From an uncultured Opitutia bacterium (GTDB lineage Bacteria; Verrucomicrobiota; Verrucomicrobiia; Opitutales; Opitutaceae): DNA of 64,000 nt. Location of the stretch: the NCBI GenBank assembly GCA_903839035.1, contig CAIMAQ010000046.1, forward strand, positions 1-64,000, given 5' to 3'. Below the pieces are notes generated by a model. It made no database searches and had not been told where the DNA came from. It saw only the letters and a program-made list of their open reading frames with translations. This document shows, piece after piece, positions 5,934 to 57,399 of this stretch. The position numbers and the translations under genes are program-made. Positions within the stretch are counted from its first letter, which is position 1. Every line of letters starts with the position of its first letter.

Positions 5934-6689
5934 ATGCTGATCGACACCAACGTCAACCTGGGCCCGTGGCCGTTCACCCCCGTGCCGGACCGCACCGGCC
6001 CGGCACTCGCCGCCCACCTCGCCTCCAACGGCATCCGCCGCGCGCTCGTCTCCCACTTCGGCGCCGTCTTCCTGCCCGAGCCGATGCCCGCGAACCGGAA
6101 GCTCTTTGCCGCCGTCCGCCGGTCGCCCGCGCTGATCCCCGTGCCCGTGATCAACCCTGCGCTCCGCAACTGGCGCGAGCAGCTCGCCGAGTGCCGCGAC
6201 GCCGCCCCGCTCCGCGCGGTGAAGATCCTGCCGAACTACCACCGCTACAAGCTCGGCGCCGCCCACCTTGTGCCGTTCATGGCCGCGCTCGCCGACGCCA
6301 AGCTGAAGCTCATCCTCAACGTCCGCCTCGAGGACGAGCGCCACAAGTATTTCGCCCTGCGGATCAAGGGCGTGCCCGTGCCCGAGCTCGCCCGCTTCCT
6401 CGGGCGGTTCCCGCGGCACCACGTGCTCTTCGCCGGCATCTACAAGGGCGAGGTCGAGAAGCTCGCGCCCAACTTCACGAACTTTTCCGCCGAGATCTCC
6501 TTCTGCGAGACCACGAACTGCCTCGAGCTCATGCTCCCCAAGTTTCCCGCCCGCCGGCTCATGCTCGGCACGTGCACGCCCCTGCTCTCCACCCGCGGCG
6601 AGGCCGACAAACTCCGCGGCGCCCGCATCCCCGCCCGCGCCAAGACCCTCATCGGCGCCGCCAACGCCCGGCGCTTCTTCAATCTCTGA
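5934..6689 (+). CDS. amidohydrolase-fold protein lacking the HxH metal motif
   Basis: 251 residues, same fold and probable operon as the preceding amidohydrolase. The N-terminal strand reads LIDTNVNLGPWPF, so both histidines of HxH are asparagines, and the late motif normally containing Asp reads MLGTCTPLL. Only a few conserved features remain (RAVKILPNYH, VRLEDER). This suggests a non-catalytic partner or an enzyme with an altered metal site. Possible roles are regulatory subunit or substrate-binding protein of its neighbour. The following 215 bp holds a large nested palindrome. Confidence 0.65.
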   Translation: MLIDTNVNLGPWPFTPVPDRTGPALAAHLASNGIRRALVSHFGAVFLPEPMPANRKLFAAVRRSPALIPVPVINPALRNWREQLAECRDAAPLRAVKILPNYHRYKLGAAHLVPFMAALADAKLKLILNVRLEDERHKYFALRIKGVPVPELARFLGRFPRHHVLFAGIYKGEVEKLAPNFTNFSAEISFCETTNCLELMLPKFPARRLMLGTCTPLLSTRGEADKLRGARIPARAKTLIGAANARRFFNL

Positions 6690-6700
6690 GTTTTGTTTGC

Positions 6701-6893
6701 ACAGGAGGGAACGGAGAGAACGGAGCTAAGCCCCCATCTCCCGGAGTTTTTTTACCACGGAATACGCGGATGTTTACGGATCAGAATCCAATCCATGCCT
6801 CTCCGGATTGATCCGTGTCCTCCGTGTAATCCGTGGTAAAAAATCCGAAGCCTTATTGCCTCTCACCCCTCCGTTCTCTCCGTTCCCTCCTGT
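6701..6893. repeat. nested intergenic palindrome (two inverted repeats, one inside the other)
   Basis: Outer arms 6701-6725 and 6869-6893 are perfect 25-nt inverted repeats (core GGAACGGAGAGAACGG). Inside lies a second, imperfect inverted repeat, 6747-6794 against 6804-6843, with the ends TTTTTTACCACGGA and its complement. The right outer arm ends 11 bp before the ATG of the next gene. The inner part shares its ACCACGGA end with the element at 24913-24999, and the outer right arm resembles bases 7846-7863 before the next gene. In RNA it could form a long cruciform-like hairpin. Confidence 0.85.
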
Positions 6894-6904
6894 AAAATCG
6901 CCCC

Positions 6905-7753
6905 ATGCCTTCCGTAAGCTACGTCACCCATCCTCACCAGCGCATCACGGAGGCCCAGTTCCAGCAGTTGCTGGAGGAAAATTTCCTCATTCTTCCGCGC
7001 TTCATCCCCGACGACGAGCTGCCCGCCCTCCAGGCCGCCCAGCGCAACGCGCTCAAGCCTTGGGATGAGGTGAAGGCCAACCCGCCGCCCCACCGCGCGC
7101 TGATCATCCCCTTTCCCTACACGGACCTGCGCATGTCGCAGCTCTACCTGCACCCCGAGCTGATCAAGCTCGGCCGGCGATTCCTCAAAACCCCCGACGT
7201 CCACGCCCGCGTCGGCTGCCTGCTCGCCCGCTATCCCGGCTTCGTCTGCAACGACCCCGGCCACATCGACAACGGCAATAATTCCCTCCTGCCGATGTCC
7301 ACGAGTCACCGCGAATTCGGCCAGCTCGGCTTCTGGATCCACCTCGAGGAAGTGAAGGCCGACAACGCCCCCCTGCGCCTCGTGCGCACGCGCGACGGCA
7401 AGGACCTCTCCAAGGCCGTACCGCTCGTCTGCCCGCCCGGCACCGTCTGCATCTTCAACAACTACACGTTTCACGCCGCCAGCGACTTCACCGGCACCAC
7501 CGGCCAGCGTTTCACCTGGGGCTGGGGACTCGGCCGCGCTGATCACTCGTTCGAGGGCTTCGTCCATTACACCAACATCGGCACCGACCCGATGTGGAAG
7601 GCGGTCGTCGCCTCCTTCACCGCCGAGGAGCGTACCCTGTTCCGCTTCCCCCCGCCGAATCACCCCTACTACACCCGCCAGACCCTCGCCGCCCTCGAGG
7701 CCTGGTACCCCGGCTGGAACGCCCGCGGCGAATACCTGCCCTCCGATGGCTAA
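6905..7753 (+). CDS. phytanoyl-CoA dioxygenase (PhyH) family protein
   Basis: 282 residues. PhyH proteins are Fe(II)/2-oxoglutarate oxygenases with a 2-His-1-Asp triad; here HID in DPGHIDNGNN and the distal His in NYTFHAASDF are plausible ligands, followed by an Arg (TGQRFTW) for 2-oxoglutarate. No signal peptide, so cytoplasmic. The translation start is hemmed in by a palindrome arm and lacks a Shine-Dalgarno sequence. Neighbours are amidohydrolases and a DegT aminotransferase, suggesting hydroxylation of a small polar compound (sugar, cyclitol, quaternary amine or phosphonate) rather than a fatty acid. It is one of three PhyH genes in the window. Confidence 0.75.
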   Translation: MPSVSYVTHPHQRITEAQFQQLLEENFLILPRFIPDDELPALQAAQRNALKPWDEVKANPPPHRALIIPFPYTDLRMSQLYLHPELIKLGRRFLKTPDVHARVGCLLARYPGFVCNDPGHIDNGNNSLLPMSTSHREFGQLGFWIHLEEVKADNAPLRLVRTRDGKDLSKAVPLVCPPGTVCIFNNYTFHAASDFTGTTGQRFTWGWGLGRADHSFEGFVHYTNIGTDPMWKAVVASFTAEERTLFRFPPPNHPYYTRQTLAALEAWYPGWNARGEYLPSDG

Positions 7754-7759
7754 ATGGTG

Positions 7760-7827
7760 GCCCACGGAACACACAGAACACACGGAAGGGAGACCAATTC
7801 CGGATCGATTCCGTGTATTCCGTGGGC
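7760..7827. repeat. intergenic palindrome
   Basis: The arms GCCCACGGAA (7760-7769) and TTCCGTGGGC (7818-7827) are perfect, with a second pair CACGGAA/TTCCGTG (7781-7787, 7809-7815) inside. The motif CACGGAA is shared with the ACCACGGA-type inner repeats elsewhere. It lies between the PhyH and DegT genes and could act as a terminator-like hairpin. Confidence 0.75.
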
Positions 7828-7873
7828 AATATTCCGATCTCCCATTCTCCGTTCCGTCCTGTAAACTCCCCTC

Positions 7874-9097
7874 ATGAGCACCGTCGCCTCCCCCGCCGCC
7901 AAGCCGATCGTCGATGAGCCGCCGCCGCAGCCGCAGCGCTGGGGTGCCGCCGAACTGGAGCGCCTCACCGCGATGGTCCAGCAACCCTCTCTCTTTTACT
8001 GGAAGGGCCCTCAGACCACCGCGCTCATCGAGGAATTCCGCAAACTCTACCCGTTCAAGCACGTCTTCCCCTGCTCTTCCGGCACCGCCGCCCTGCACAT
8101 CGCCGTCGCCGCGCTGCGCCTGCGGCCGGGCGACGAGATCATCGTCCCGCCCATCACCGACATGGGTTCAGTCATCGGCATCCTCTACCAGCAGTGCGTG
8201 CCGGTGTTCGCCGATCTCGATCCGCGCACCTACAATCTGGACCCCGCCGCCGTGCGCAGCGCCATCACGTCGAAGACCCGCGCCATCATGGCCGTGCATC
8301 TCGCCGGCAACCCCGCGGACCTCACCGCCCTCTCCGCCATCGCGAAGGAGCACAAACTCATCCTCATCGAGGACTGCGCCCAGTCGTGGGGCGCCCAGCA
8401 CCGCGGCACTCCCGTGGGCCTCGTCGGCGATTTCGGCTGCTACTCACTCAACGATTTCAAGCACATCGCCTGCGGTGACGGCGGCATCGTCGCCACGAAT
8501 AGCGAAACTTACGGCCCCGGCCTCTCGAAGTGGGGCGACAAGTCCTACGATCGCGTCAACGGCGGACGCGAAGTCGAGGAACTCGCCCCCAACTACCGCA
8601 TCAGCGAGCCGCAATCCGCCGTCGCCGCCGCCCAGCTCACCAAGCTCCCCGACATCGTCACCCGCCGCCACCGCGCCGGCAGCCTGCTCACGTCGCTGCT
8701 CGAAGGTACGCCCGGCCTGCTCCTGCCCACCGTCGCGCCTGGCGACACCCACAGCTACTGGTTCTACATGCTGCGCCTCGAGTTGGCGCGCTTCTCAATC
8801 CCCCGCGCCGAGATCGCCGCCGCGCTCAACGCCGAGGGCGTTCCTTGCGGCGCCGGCTACATCCCGCGGCCCGTCTATCAGTACCCCGTTTTCCAACAGC
8901 ACAATTTCTTCGGCGGCGCCTGGCCCGTGCGCGACTTCGGCCTGACGCAGATGGATTACCGCGCCGTTTCCTGCCCGGTGTCCGAGGCCATCCTCCAGGA
9001 CTGCCTCACCATGCGGATCACCGAGGCCATGACCGACCGCTACATCGAGAAGGTCGCCCGCGCCATCACGACGGTGACCAAGCGGCTGGCGAGGTAG
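7874..9097 (+). CDS. DegT/DnrJ/EryC1/StrS family PLP-dependent aminotransferase
   Basis: 407 residues, fold type I. The PLP lysine is in NDFKHIACGDGG, the aspartate contacting the pyridine nitrogen in LIEDCAQSWGAQ, and the phosphate-binding region in PCSSGTAALH. Family members transfer amino groups onto keto sugars or keto-cyclitols. An isolated copy in a catabolic setting, without nucleotide-sugar genes beside it, leaves the substrate open. The last codon TAG is part of an intergenic repeat starting at 9094. The leader just upstream (TCCGTTC.GTCCTGTAAA) resembles that of the preceding PhyH gene, and no Shine-Dalgarno sequence is visible. Confidence 0.85.
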   Translation: MSTVASPAAKPIVDEPPPQPQRWGAAELERLTAMVQQPSLFYWKGPQTTALIEEFRKLYPFKHVFPCSSGTAALHIAVAALRLRPGDEIIVPPITDMGSVIGILYQQCVPVFADLDPRTYNLDPAAVRSAITSKTRAIMAVHLAGNPADLTALSAIAKEHKLILIEDCAQSWGAQHRGTPVGLVGDFGCYSLNDFKHIACGDGGIVATNSETYGPGLSKWGDKSYDRVNGGREVEELAPNYRISEPQSAVAAAQLTKLPDIVTRRHRAGSLLTSLLEGTPGLLLPTVAPGDTHSYWFYMLRLELARFSIPRAEIAAALNAEGVPCGAGYIPRPVYQYPVFQQHNFFGGAWPVRDFGLTQMDYRAVSCPVSEAILQDCLTMRITEAMTDRYIEKVARAITTVTKRLAR

Positions 9098-9256
9098 GGC
9101 GCGACCGCCGGGCGCGCTCCGGGGTGGAACGCGTTGTCCCTGACGCGTTTTCTGGCCACTTCCGCGATGCATGCCGTGCAAACCAACTCAGCGCGTTAGG
9201 GACAACGCGCTCCACCTGCCCAATCCAGGCTGGCGGGCCCAGCGGGCTCGCCCTAC
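9094..9256. repeat. nested intergenic palindrome overlapping a stop codon
   Basis: Outer arms 9094-9117 and 9233-9256 (GTAGGGCG... / ...CGCCCTAC) match at 20 of 24 positions; inner arms 9124-9147 and 9192-9215 (core GTGGA-CGCGTTGTCCCT) match at 22 of 24. The TAG inside the left end is the stop codon of the DegT gene. The inner core recurs at 23523-23548. Between the element and the next gene (9257-9377) is unremarkable C-rich sequence ending in a pyrimidine-rich stretch (9336-9377). Confidence 0.85.
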
Positions 9257-9377
9257 CCGAATCCAATCGCGTCATCCCCCGCAAGCGGCTTGCAGCCGCC
9301 CGCCCGTTTCTGCCAAGAGGTACCCGCCCCGTCTCTTCCCCCAGTCCCTCAGTCCCTTTCCCTCAGTCCCCGCCCCC

Positions 9378-29251: not shown

Positions 29252-29260
29252 CCCGATTCT

Positions 29261-29355
29261 GCCCGCTAACCACGCGAATGAACGCGAATGTCTGAGGTCT
29301 TGAGTCCGTCAGCGATTCTTCGGATATATTCGCGTCCATTCGCGTGATTCGCGGG
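29261..29355. repeat. intergenic palindrome, CGCGAATCACGCGAAT family
   Basis: Arms 29261-29292 and 29324-29355 pair with 5 mismatches in 32. The right arm TTCGCGTGATTCGCGGGC is identical to one at 53017-53034. It ends 13 bp before the desaturase ATG. Confidence 0.8.
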
Positions 29356-29368
29356 CAAACATCCCCCC

Positions 29369-51107: not shown

Positions 51108-51194
51108 TGGTGCCCGGGGTGGGGGTCGAACCCACATGACCTTGCGGTCGGCAGATTTTGAGTCTGCAGCGTCTGCCAATTCCGCCACCCGGGC
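51108..51194 (-). tRNA. tRNA-Leu (CAA)
   Basis: On the minus strand the 87-nt segment folds as a class II tRNA: acceptor GCCCGGG paired with CCCGGGC, anticodon stem GCAGA/TCTGC with loop CTCAAAA giving anticodon CAA, a long variable arm (GACCGCAAGGTC), T-arm GGGTTCGACCC, discriminator A and encoded CCA. The codon read is TTG. No tRNA neighbour; it lies between the DUF3570 operon and rsmE. A small hairpin GTGCGG/CCGCAC (51036-51062) lies downstream of it on the same strand and may terminate it. Confidence 0.95.
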
Positions 51195-51558: not shown

Positions 51559-52338
51559 ATGCCCGACTTTCGCGCCTTCTGCACGCCGCCGACCGCCGAA
51601 CCCGCCGAACTCACGCTCGACGCGGACGAGTCCCATCACCTCGTCGCCGTCAATCGCGCGCGCCCCGGCGACACCGTGGTGGCCTTTGACGGCCGCGGCA
51701 GCGAATGGATCTGCGAACTCACCAGTGACCGGAAAAACGCCGCGGTCTTGAAGGTCCGTTTCCGCCAGAAAGCCCGGCCCCTCCCCTACGAGATCACCCT
51801 CGGCCAGGCGCTGCCCAAGGGCCCGTCCATGGACGCCATCGTCCGCAAGGCGACCGAGATCGGCGCCGCCCAGATTGTGCCGCTGGAAAGCGAGCGCACG
51901 CAGGTGCACCTCGAGGGCGACCGCTCCGACCGGAAAATCGAAAAATGGCAGACCGCCGCCCTCGAAGCCGCGAAACAATGCGGCAACCCCTTTCTCCCCG
52001 TGATCGCCCCGGTGCAGAAGGCCGCGGCCTTCATGGAGTCCGCGCGCGGCTACGATCTTAAGCTCATTGCGAGTCTCCAGCCCGGGGCAAAGTCCTTGAA
52101 GGGCGTGCTCGCCGCCTATGCCGCGGTGCAGGGCCGCGCCCCGAAAAAAGTGCTCTGGCTCGTCGGCCCCGAGGGTGATTTCACCCCCGCGGAGATGAGT
52201 CAGGCGAAGTCATGCGGCTTCGAGCCGATCACGCTCGGCCCACTCGTGCTCCGCTGCGAAACCGCCGCGACCTACGCGCTCAGCGTGCTGAGCTACGAAC
52301 TGCAATCGCCCGAGGCGCAAATAACACGGGACAAGTAA
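51559..52338 (+). CDS. rsmE: 16S rRNA (uracil-1498-N3)-methyltransferase RsmE
   Basis: 259 residues, the normal size. SPOUT fold: VLWLVGPEGDFTPAE and LGPLVLRCETAATYAL (canonical LGxRILRxETA). An N-terminal PUA-like domain begins MPDFRAFCTPPT, and residues about 18-70 include DADESHHLVAVNRARPGD. It modifies U1498 of 16S rRNA using SAM. The start at 51559 gives the expected N-terminus. The TAA stop lies inside an intergenic repeat arm (52332-52340). Confidence 0.92.
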   Translation: MPDFRAFCTPPTAEPAELTLDADESHHLVAVNRARPGDTVVAFDGRGSEWICELTSDRKNAAVLKVRFRQKARPLPYEITLGQALPKGPSMDAIVRKATEIGAAQIVPLESERTQVHLEGDRSDRKIEKWQTAALEAAKQCGNPFLPVIAPVQKAAAFMESARGYDLKLIASLQPGAKSLKGVLAAYAAVQGRAPKKVLWLVGPEGDFTPAEMSQAKSCGFEPITLGPLVLRCETAATYALSVLSYELQSPEAQITRDK

Positions 52339-52396
52339 CAGGTAACAGGCAGCGGCCGGGGCGGCCCGGCTTGTTACTTGGTCCTTGGGACTTGAG
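52330..52396. repeat. intergenic repeat with CAAGTAACA/TGTTACTTG arms
   Basis: CAAGTAACA (52332-52340) and TGTTACTTG (52372-52380) are a perfect 9-bp inverted repeat, continued by TCCTTGGGACTTG (52382-52394), whose complement CAAGTCCCAAG recurs at 58149. The stop codon TAA of rsmE is in the left arm. Confidence 0.65.
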
Positions 52397-52415
52397 CCCC
52401 TCGCGGCGCGTTCGG

Positions 52416-52883: not shown

Positions 52884-52954
52884 GGCGGTTTTTGTGCCCG
52901 AAGTGTGCGCGGTGCGCGGGCTTGGTCAAGGGAAGGCGCGACGATCCTGAGTCG

Positions 52955-53034
52955 CCCGCGAATCACGCGAATCGACGCGAAGCAGACAAGACCCTCACCC
53001 CATCACATTCGCGCCGATTCGCGTGATTCGCGGG
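52955..53034. repeat. intergenic palindrome, CGCGAATCACGCGAAT family
   Basis: Arms 52955-52980 and 53009-53034 match at 25 of 26 positions; 28-nt loop. The right arm TTCGCGTGATTCGCGGGC is the same as at 29338-29355. It lies between the lipoyl protein and kdsA, immediately after the kdsA stop on the minus strand. Confidence 0.85.
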
Positions 53035-53040
53035 CAAAAA

Positions 53041-56310: not shown

Positions 56311-57321
56311 ATGGCCTCTCCTTCCTTTGATCTCATCGGCATCGGCAATCCCATCATGGATCTGCTCGCCCACGTGGATGACGCCTTCCTCGCCCGGCAC
56401 GTCGCCGGCGACAAGGGCGGCATGGTGCTGGTGGACGACGCCGACATCGCCGCGCTTGTCCAGAAGGTCCACGGCAACGTCGCCACCATGCCCGGCGGCG
56501 CCGTCGCCAACGCCACCCTCGGCGCCACGCGCCTCGGCCTGCGCACCACGTACCTGGGCAAGATCGGCGGCGACATTACCGCGGAGCATTATTTCGCCAA
56601 CTTCACCGCCGCCGGCGGCGATGGCTCGCGCTTCAAGCGCGCCACGCTCCCCAACGGCCGCTGCCTCTCCCTCGTCACGCCCGACGGCCAGCGCACGCTG
56701 CGCACCCACCTCGGCGCGGCCATGACGCTGTCACCGGACGAAATCTCCCCCGCCGACTTCCTCGGCGCCCGCCACGCCCTCATCGAGGGCTACCTGCTCT
56801 TCAATCCGGCCCTCGCAACCCAGGTCATCCGGACCGCCCGGGCCGCCGGCTGCACCATCAGCATCGACCTCGCCTCCTTCGAGGTGGTGAAGGCCGCGCG
56901 TGACTGGATTTTTGCGCAGCTGCGCGAGGGCGTGGACATCGTCTTCGCCAACGAGGACGAGGCCGCCGCGCTGTTCCAGCGCCAGGATACCTATGAGAAT
57001 TTCGCCCGGGAGATCGCCGGCTTTGGCGGCATCGCGGCGGTGAAGATGGGCAAGGACGGCGCGTGGGTCGCCCGGGGCAAGGAACTGCACCGCATCCACC
57101 CCGTTCACGCCGCGCGCGTCGTCGACACGACCGGAGCGGGCGACTCCTGGGCCGCGGGTTTTCTTTACGGCCACCTGCGCGGCGCCTCCCTGGCCGCGTC
57201 CGGCGCCATCGGCTCCATCCTCGGCGCCGAAACCGTCCAGCATCTCGGCGCCGCGATTCCGGATACCTTCTGGCCGCACATCCGCGCCCACGCCGAGGCG
57301 TTGGTGAAGCAGCCCAAGTAG
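56311..57321 (+). CDS. PfkB family carbohydrate/nucleoside kinase (adenosine kinase-like)
   Basis: 336 residues. PfkB signature 2 DTTGAGDSWAAGFLYG with the catalytic Asp; N-terminal GIGNPIMDLLAHVDD and GGAVANATLGATRLG match adenosine-kinase-like members. It would phosphorylate a nucleoside or sugar with ATP. The TAG stop is provided by the left end of an intergenic palindrome (57318-57342). Substrate remains open because the sugar loci are not adjacent. Confidence 0.85.
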   Translation: MASPSFDLIGIGNPIMDLLAHVDDAFLARHVAGDKGGMVLVDDADIAALVQKVHGNVATMPGGAVANATLGATRLGLRTTYLGKIGGDITAEHYFANFTAAGGDGSRFKRATLPNGRCLSLVTPDGQRTLRTHLGAAMTLSPDEISPADFLGARHALIEGYLLFNPALATQVIRTARAAGCTISIDLASFEVVKAARDWIFAQLREGVDIVFANEDEAAALFQRQDTYENFAREIAGFGGIAAVKMGKDGAWVARGKELHRIHPVHAARVVDTTGAGDSWAAGFLYGHLRGASLAASGAIGSILGAETVQHLGAAIPDTFWPHIRAHAEALVKQPK

Positions 57322-57394
57322 GGCGGAGTCTTTGACCCGCCCTCTCTGAGCACACCCTCGGCCAGGTCAGGGCAGGTCAAAGACCTTGCCCTAC
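57318..57394. repeat. intergenic palindrome, GTAGGGC...GCCCTAC family
   Basis: Arms 57318-57342 and 57371-57394 pair at about 20 of 24 positions (core GTCTTTGACC). The TAG in the left end is the stop of the PfkB gene; the right end lies 5 bp before the stop of the SGNH gene on the minus strand. The sequence is a clear relative of the element at 2881-2944. Confidence 0.85.
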
Positions 57395-57399
57395 TCCAG

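Follow-up and report, generated by a model that had tools for sequence, protein, structure and literature searches.

How did two inverted repeats come to lie one inside the other in a short gap between two genes, and what kind of element are they? This question is raised by positions 6701-6893 of a 64,000-nucleotide stretch of DNA from an uncultured Opitutia bacterium, which was analyzed as a whole and which we refer to as the window. The original prediction described a nested palindrome with perfect 25-bp outer arms in a 215-bp gap, its right arm ending 11 bp before an ATG, and our analysis confirmed these points: the gap separates two protein-coding ORFs, the outer arms are complementary at 25 of 25 positions across a spacer of 143 nt, and the inner arms (23 nt each, 91% complementary, spacer of 50 nt) lie inside them. 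On base composition alone, perfect 25-bp arms no more than 250 bp apart are expected 1.7e-7 times per 64-kb window, so the structure is not a product of chance. The locus is not in a 23S rRNA gene, and an Rfam search of the window returned a tRNA at 51111-51194 as its sole match, the palindromes matching no known RNA family. The outer pair consists of ACAGGAGGGAACGGAGAGAACGGAG and a perfectly complementary arm, the inner pair of TTTTTTACCACGGAATACGCGGA and TCCGTGTAATCCGTGGTAAAAAA, and both can be read as degenerate 9-bp tandem units. We assigned the outer pair to a repeat family termed F4 and the inner pair to another, F1; the features of the locus and of related elements in the window are as follows.

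6690-6904, no strand: intergenic gap holding both elements; one flanking ORF ends at 6689, the other begins at 6905
6701-6725, minus strand: left arm of the outer (F4) element, 9-bp units, from repeat finding and family matches
6748-6770, minus strand: left arm of the inner (F1) element, ACCACGG subfamily, from repeat finding and family matches
6771-6820, no strand: loop between the inner arms as delimited by the repeat tool; the 9-bp units run on into its edges
6821-6843, plus strand: right arm of the inner (F1) element, from repeat finding and best outside matches
6869-6893, plus strand: right arm of the outer (F4) element, perfect complement of the left arm, from repeat finding
7760-7827, no strand: further F1 palindrome, located in the following gap (arms at 7760-7778 and 7809-7827)
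7847-7864, plus strand: lone F4 half-site ahead of the next gene (ATG at 7874)
29260-29357, no strand: palindrome of the related CGCGAAT (F2) family
52954-53035, no strand: F2 palindrome, missing from the orthologous place in the relative G002

The window also holds another nested pair of inverted repeats, of a different kind, at 9093-9257 (9123-9147/9192-9216 inside 9093-9117/9233-9257), and REP-like palindromes with GTAGGGCGG starts at 2880-2945 and 57317-57395, which are perhaps GTAG-type REPs.

It had also been proposed that the start region of any transcript would fall within a hairpin, and the computed fold of the RNA 6690-6930 (-108.3 kcal/mol, where shuffled sequences average -56.4; z -11.8) is compatible with this. 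Alternatively, the -10-like TAAAAT at 6893-6898, 6 bp ahead of the ATG, could give a leaderless start outside the hairpin. TAAAAT or TAAACT at the tip of an F4 arm stands exactly 6 bp before the ATGs at both 6905 and 7874 (window 6893-6904 and 7862-7873), and from these two instances in the window it is possible that the F4 repeat carries a leaderless promoter.

Copy number and anatomy of the two families

Neither sequence is unique in its own genome (3.39 Mb in 126 contigs): allowing up to two mismatches, the outer half-site CTCCGTTNNCTCCTGTAA has 51 matches against 2 for a reversed control pattern, and the inner half-site TTCCGTGTNNTCCGTGGG has 114 against 0, counts that include overlapping 9-bp registers within single arms. 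Among the own-genome loci that were read, 20 inverted pairs of F4 and 24 of F1 are listed. The 19 F4 pairs other than that of the window measure 62-107 bp, and the window's pair 197 bp; its loop contains an F1 pair of 84 bp, the remaining 23 F1 pairs measuring 56-139 bp. The window's F4 element is thus unusually long because an F1 element sits in its loop, and since the two families are separate, each is found alone elsewhere and the excess length of F4 is close to the length of F1, the earlier idea of one element inside another gains support. The common anatomy consists of inverted arms of degenerate 9-bp tandem units around a usually unique loop, the window's inner copy belonging to an ACCACGG subfamily (TCCGTGTAATCCGTGGT) that is sister to the GCCCACGG copies. 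Both families are multi-copy extragenic palindromes, with 19 of 21 sampled F1, F4 and F2 pairs lying between predicted genes.

A 261-bp query covering the locus matched no other site across the loops, and few pairs match among 123 loops compared. The main exception is a set of eight F4 copies whose full-element matches, when complete, show 94-97% identity; the copies have some 100 bp of flank in common and vary in the number of 9-bp units, and five of them are in the listed records of one Opitutaceae MAG (JAUSID01). These near-identical copies are L132, L152, L153, L163, L170, L217, L231 and L233. Copying of whole elements was considered and rejected, given that simple copying does not predict mostly unrelated loops and that the eight exceptional copies share their flanks as well.

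In the predicted intergenic DNA from 461 kb of the same genome there are 16 runs with a 9-bp period against 0.4 in shuffles, and 13 with a 7-bp period against 0.6; the split into intergenic and coding DNA rests on gene calls from a simple codon-score script. Coding DNA in the sample has 38 and 20 such runs, respectively, and because it too contains 9-bp-periodic runs, the 16 intergenic ones are not all of F1/F4-type families. In G017, numerous F4 half-sites of either orientation form arrays that extend for about 1 kb at L351 and about 0.7 kb at L352.

The two arms of an F4 element match each other less than shuffled pairs do (0.401 against 0.468 in 119 elements) and are of the same type in 2 of 119 elements, against 8.1 expected. 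The idea that the F4 hairpin is kept by pairing is not supported, as the arms do not co-vary as stems; such divergence would be expected of two different ends, or of a stem in which mismatches are needed, more than of a perfect hairpin, and the perfect F4 arms of the window are unusual in their family. For F1 the arm match is 0.462 against 0.341 in shuffled pairs (44 elements), a comparison confounded by subfamilies.

Paired F4 arms occur in at least 116 stretches of named genomes. Of the 80 listed, 55 have titles naming Opitutaceae, Opitutae, Opitutia, Opitutales, Opitutus or Lacunisphaera, and the rest are mostly Verrucomicrobia, with one Planctomycetota. Across 12 genomes of the genus, half-site numbers are 88, 71, 58, 44, 30, 18, 6, 1, 1, 0, 0 and 0 for F4 and 51, 50, 39, 32, 23, 15, 14, 8, 1, 1, 1 and 0 for F1. 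The literature searched, which did not extend to subscription papers and preprints, contains no description of these arm sequences or of such repeats in Verrucomicrobia.

Nesting and turnover between relatives

The close relative G002, mostly 92-96% identical in aligned pieces, has the same nested element in the same place, differing over the 215 bp by 4 substitutions and 2 indels of one base each, as counted by eye. Since the nested element is common to both genomes, the nesting predates their split, and G002 offers no empty site for comparison at this locus. Among the 57 relatives searched, only G002 has the flanking gene in recognisable orthologous form, with one distant match of 52% in G049.

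Elements of these families turn over between the two genomes. Of 49 F1, F4, F2 and F3 elements in the window's genome, 11 could be placed in 1.03 Mb of G002, which has 6 of them, lacks 4 and carries a palindrome of another family in place of the eleventh. The missing ones are an F4 element with its compound (L059), two F1 elements (L014 and L021) and the F2 element at window position 52964; in place of the F4 element L051, G002 has a palindrome with GGGGGAAGCCAGGAA arms. In the orthologous gaps of G002, which are diverged or occupied, neither a target-site duplication nor a fully clean empty site was found, and exact junctions of the missing elements are not given because the surrounding gaps themselves have diverged. 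Separately, the window has a palindrome of 7-bp units at 52307-52405, and the same gap of G002 (L111, 461-539) has one of 9-bp units, of CACGAAAAACACGAAACCCACGAAA type.

Nesting also recurs at other loci. In L350, an F4 pair lies inside an F1 pair, both found de novo; the same arrangement is probable in L348, where the right outer arm is short; and in L059, from the window's genome, an F4 pair is combined with a CCACGGAT arm on its left and a CGCGG arm on its right. It is important to note that these cases were chosen for closely spaced half-sites, so they demonstrate recurrence and not its rate.

Linkage of the arms to a GxxExxY gene

Some pairs of arms lie 400-500 bp apart, and in L343 and L344 (F4 arms, ACAGGAGG in L344) and L345 (CCACGGAG arms) each encloses one ORF of 127-133 aa. 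These ORFs match TIGR04256 (GxxExxY) and PF13366 (PDDEXK_3) far above cut-off, the TIGR04256 scores of the gene-bearing partners being 127.7, 118.8 and 153 bits against a curated cut-off of 35. The gene is present in 53 of 76 genomes of relatives, and it is linked to inverted arms: a repeat of score 13 or more lies within 250 bp in 72 of 90 GxxExxY loci (30 picked by a tool, 23 of them with arms, and 60 picked by us, 49 with arms), compared with none of 108 control positions in the same loci. Scores of at least 18 are reached by 45 of the 90 loci and 12 at most by the controls; with 350-bp flanks, one of 78 size-matched genes of the window's genome reaches 13. The best arm period is 8-10 bp in 70 of the 72 arm-bearing loci, a signal that is weak in some short arms. 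The remaining 18 loci have no inverted repeat of score 13, two of them showing a one-sided periodic tract, and the repeat of L411, 165-192 nt away, looks like chance.

The ends of the gene-less elements are shared with gene-bearing ones, as in MITEs, and the gene found is not a transposase but a member of the PD-(D/E)XK superfamily. F4 arms surround a GxxExxY gene at seven loci in other genomes (L343, L344, L409, L437, L438, L119 and L134); in L119, 6 and 3 nt separate the arms from the two ends of the ORF, and L437 and L438 have a gene-less F4 palindrome between left arm and gene. For F1, a GxxExxY gene of the window's own genome (L427, G000:C125:50907-51251) lies inside GCCCACGGAACACACGGAAAACACGGAAG / GCCCACGGAATACACGGAACACACGGAAG, arms of the GCCCACGG type that also flank the gene in L407 and L431, and ACCACGG-type arms like the window's inner ones flank it in L439, from another genus. 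The own genome has four GxxExxY genes, of which the two examined lack F4 arms.

Arm sequence co-varies with protein sequence (Mantel r 0.453, P 0.0005, for 61 loci, in which the sequence taken for L369 is in a wrong frame), including among protein pairs under 60% identity (r 0.305, P 0.001). Arm families correspond to nuclease clades, and the proteins found with F4 arms and those found with CCCACGG arms form separate clades. In a clade of eight proteins that are 53-81% identical, seven have F4-type arms; the L427, L407 and L431 proteins, 68-74% identical, all have CCCACGGA arms; and identity between the two clades is about 30-35%. The active-site residues are conserved among 82 GxxExxY proteins (D 100%, E 99%, K 99%), L343 having EAN instead of EAK. 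The orthologous place of G000:C125 in G002, between flanks that are 93-95% identical, is occupied by a GxxExxY element whose arms are of the CCCGCGAA (F2) type and whose protein is 57% identical. In 49 genomes of the family, F1 plus F4 counts rise with the number of GxxExxY genes (Spearman 0.47, P 0.0006, ignoring kinship); G031 has no GxxExxY match, yet 8 half-sites.

Outside these genomes, 4 of 8 GxxExxY records from a plasmid collection have inverted periodic arms of score 16-32 (Bacteroides, Bernardetia, Sphingomonas and Gemmatirosa), and the other four score 9-11 (Treponema, Persicobacter, Fusobacteria bacterium and Prevotella). No GxxExxY gene was confirmed in viral contigs. A PDB sequence search with the A2 sequence gave one match (E 0.86), PADLOC gave weak Cas4 matches for GxxExxY (best E 0.0016), and a structure model of L119 built on 4 alignment rows was uninformative (mean pLDDT 33.8). 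In the accessible text of PMC8934634, GxxExxY is mentioned once, in a passage on reverse transcriptases, and it is mentioned once in that of PMC12085832; the literature searched, again apart from subscription papers and preprints, has no printed link of GxxExxY to inverted periodic arms.

A different gene, encoding an S23/four-helix-bundle protein (TIGR02436), occurs in 52 of 76 genomes. Inverted arms of score 13 or more are present in 16 of 30 S23 loci (L447-L476), with a best period of 7 bp in 14 of the 16, and S23 genes within 7-bp-unit arms may form a class parallel to the nuclease-bearing elements. The 7-bp direct repeats described in the available text on Beggiatoaceae and cyanobacteria (PMC4679880) offer a comparison for these arms.

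Candidate movers and comparison with known systems

The explanation that we favor, with a probability of about 0.58, is that the locus comprises two gene-less, MITE-like members of an element class with a nuclease in its stem, that an F1 element inserted in the loop of F4, and that the nuclease mobilises the arms. The fuller form of such an element would have two inverted arms of a few degenerate 8-10-bp units enclosing one GxxExxY (PD-(D/E)XK) gene of about 130 aa. The nuclease would recognise its own arms, as duplex repeats or as an extruded hairpin or cruciform, and would cut at them; repair or integration would then spread the arm pair together with the content of the loop, whether gene, short filler or another palindrome. 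Copy number, structure, turnover, nesting, the linkage of arms to the gene and the co-variation of arms with protein are directly observed in the sequences, and it is from these that we infer an action of the nuclease on its arms and a resulting spread of gene-less pairs. The 18 GxxExxY loci without an inverted repeat of score 13, the mostly unrelated loops and the half-sites of G031 count against this explanation.

The possibility raised by the search for a RAYT transposase that the original prediction recommended, REPINs moved by a RAYT, is not supported and appears to us very improbable. Inverted pairs with variable spacers do resemble REPINs as described in the consulted part of PMC3116915, the window's genome has two RAYT genes, and genomes without RAYT have fewer half-sites (P 0.041, ignoring kinship). 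Nevertheless, none of the 19 RAYT loci of the genus carries F1 or F4 half-sites in flanks of up to 1.5 kb, and in 49 genomes of the family there is no rise of half-site counts with the number of RAYT genes (Spearman 0.15, P 0.31, kinship again ignored). A link of the long RAYT to repeat-rich genomes, suggested by a first look in the genus, was rejected: relatives of this 328-aa protein occur in repeat-poor G003 and G006, and no match occurs in repeat-rich G007 and G027, with 72 and 21 F1 plus F4 half-sites. REPs are recognised by a GTAG or CGTC tag beside a 5-13 bp stem, according to the available text of PMC3733652, and the arm consensus contains neither tag. A different repeat, GGGGTCAGCCCC, bounds 6 of the 19 RAYT loci, and in L245 an F2 half-site lies at a distance of about 0.9 kb. 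The RAYT L010 is flanked by a GTGGGTGGGG repeat; such repeats look like the REPs of Opitutus terrae, in which, according to the same source, GTAG-20 REPs are abundant and in most cases have GTGG as a mutated form of the tag.

Host function offers another account, in which the palindromes are hairpins kept by selection on the host as terminators, protectors of mRNA ends or sites for a nucleoid protein or regulator, and GxxExxY is a domesticated processing enzyme beside some of them. The strong RNA fold agrees with it, as do the few changes with which the nested element has been kept in G002 and the three places where the same gap of the two species holds differing palindromes or elements, as if a hairpin were needed there; we nonetheless consider it unlikely, because elements are wholly missing from orthologous gaps, F4 copy numbers range from 88 to 0 inside one genus, and F4 arms lack co-variation as stems. 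The elements might instead be MITEs of the usual kind that depend on a conventional DDE or HUH transposase, with the nuclease gene as a passenger that tends to sit between arms. Gene-less elements with inverted ends, presence/absence differences and nesting agree with this, but GxxExxY is the only gene found between the arms (searches covered GxxExxY, S23 and RAYT genes, and no transposase was found there) and the arms track its clades, which makes a passenger role less likely still.

Mobilisation by the nuclease, if correct, would have wider consequences. We propose tentatively, and at somewhat less than even odds, a new class of selfish DNA in several phyla, in which a PD-(D/E)XK gene between arms of 8-10-bp units spreads both its own element and large numbers of gene-less palindromes through cuts in arm repeats or hairpins, with a parallel S23 class with 7-bp-unit arms, and in which nesting followed by decay of the outer arms replaces one family by another at a site. 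To our knowledge, wherever a mover has been proposed for small bacterial palindromic repeats, it is an HUH (RAYT) or DDE enzyme; the sequence evidence presented here links palindromes in several phyla to a PD-(D/E)XK family known in databases only as 'GxxExxY protein'. The selfish-class reading would explain scattered repeats of CCACAGAG, CCACGAAT and CCACGGA type and give two abundant protein families a role. If the nuclease acts on the arms, GxxExxY would gain a testable function and orphan repeats a mover, and nested palindromes would be steps of turnover.

Among known systems, REPINs and their RAYTs, as presented in the available parts of PMC3116915, PMC2817692 and PMC3733652, are similar in being multi-copy intergenic inverted pairs with variable spacers, in having a gene-bearing partner with matching ends, in the pairing of enzyme and repeat families and in uneven copy numbers. 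They differ in that their partner is a Y1 HUH transposase and ours a PD-(D/E)XK-superfamily protein whose gene lies between the arms of one palindrome, in that our arms are 8-10-bp tandem units without a GTAG/CGTC tag, and in that F4 arms mismatch where compensatory changes are seen in REPIN arms. The MITEs that derive from bacterial insertion sequences (reviewed in PMC10969869) are likewise short, lack a gene, have the same ends as an element that carries one, differ in presence between relatives and nest in one another; in our case no DDE transposase or target duplication was found and most loops are unrelated. The intervening sequence of the Coxiella 23S rRNA, termed selfish by its authors in the portion of PMC4990558 available, likewise has one small ORF, S23, in the loop of a long terminal-inverted-repeat stem, but the elements described here lie between protein genes, encode a nuclease-fold protein rather than S23 and have tandem-unit arms. 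Finally, the gene-bearing partners match both models of the GxxExxY family, TIGR04256 and PF13366, but stand between inverted periodic arms, for which the literature searched gave no printed link to that family.
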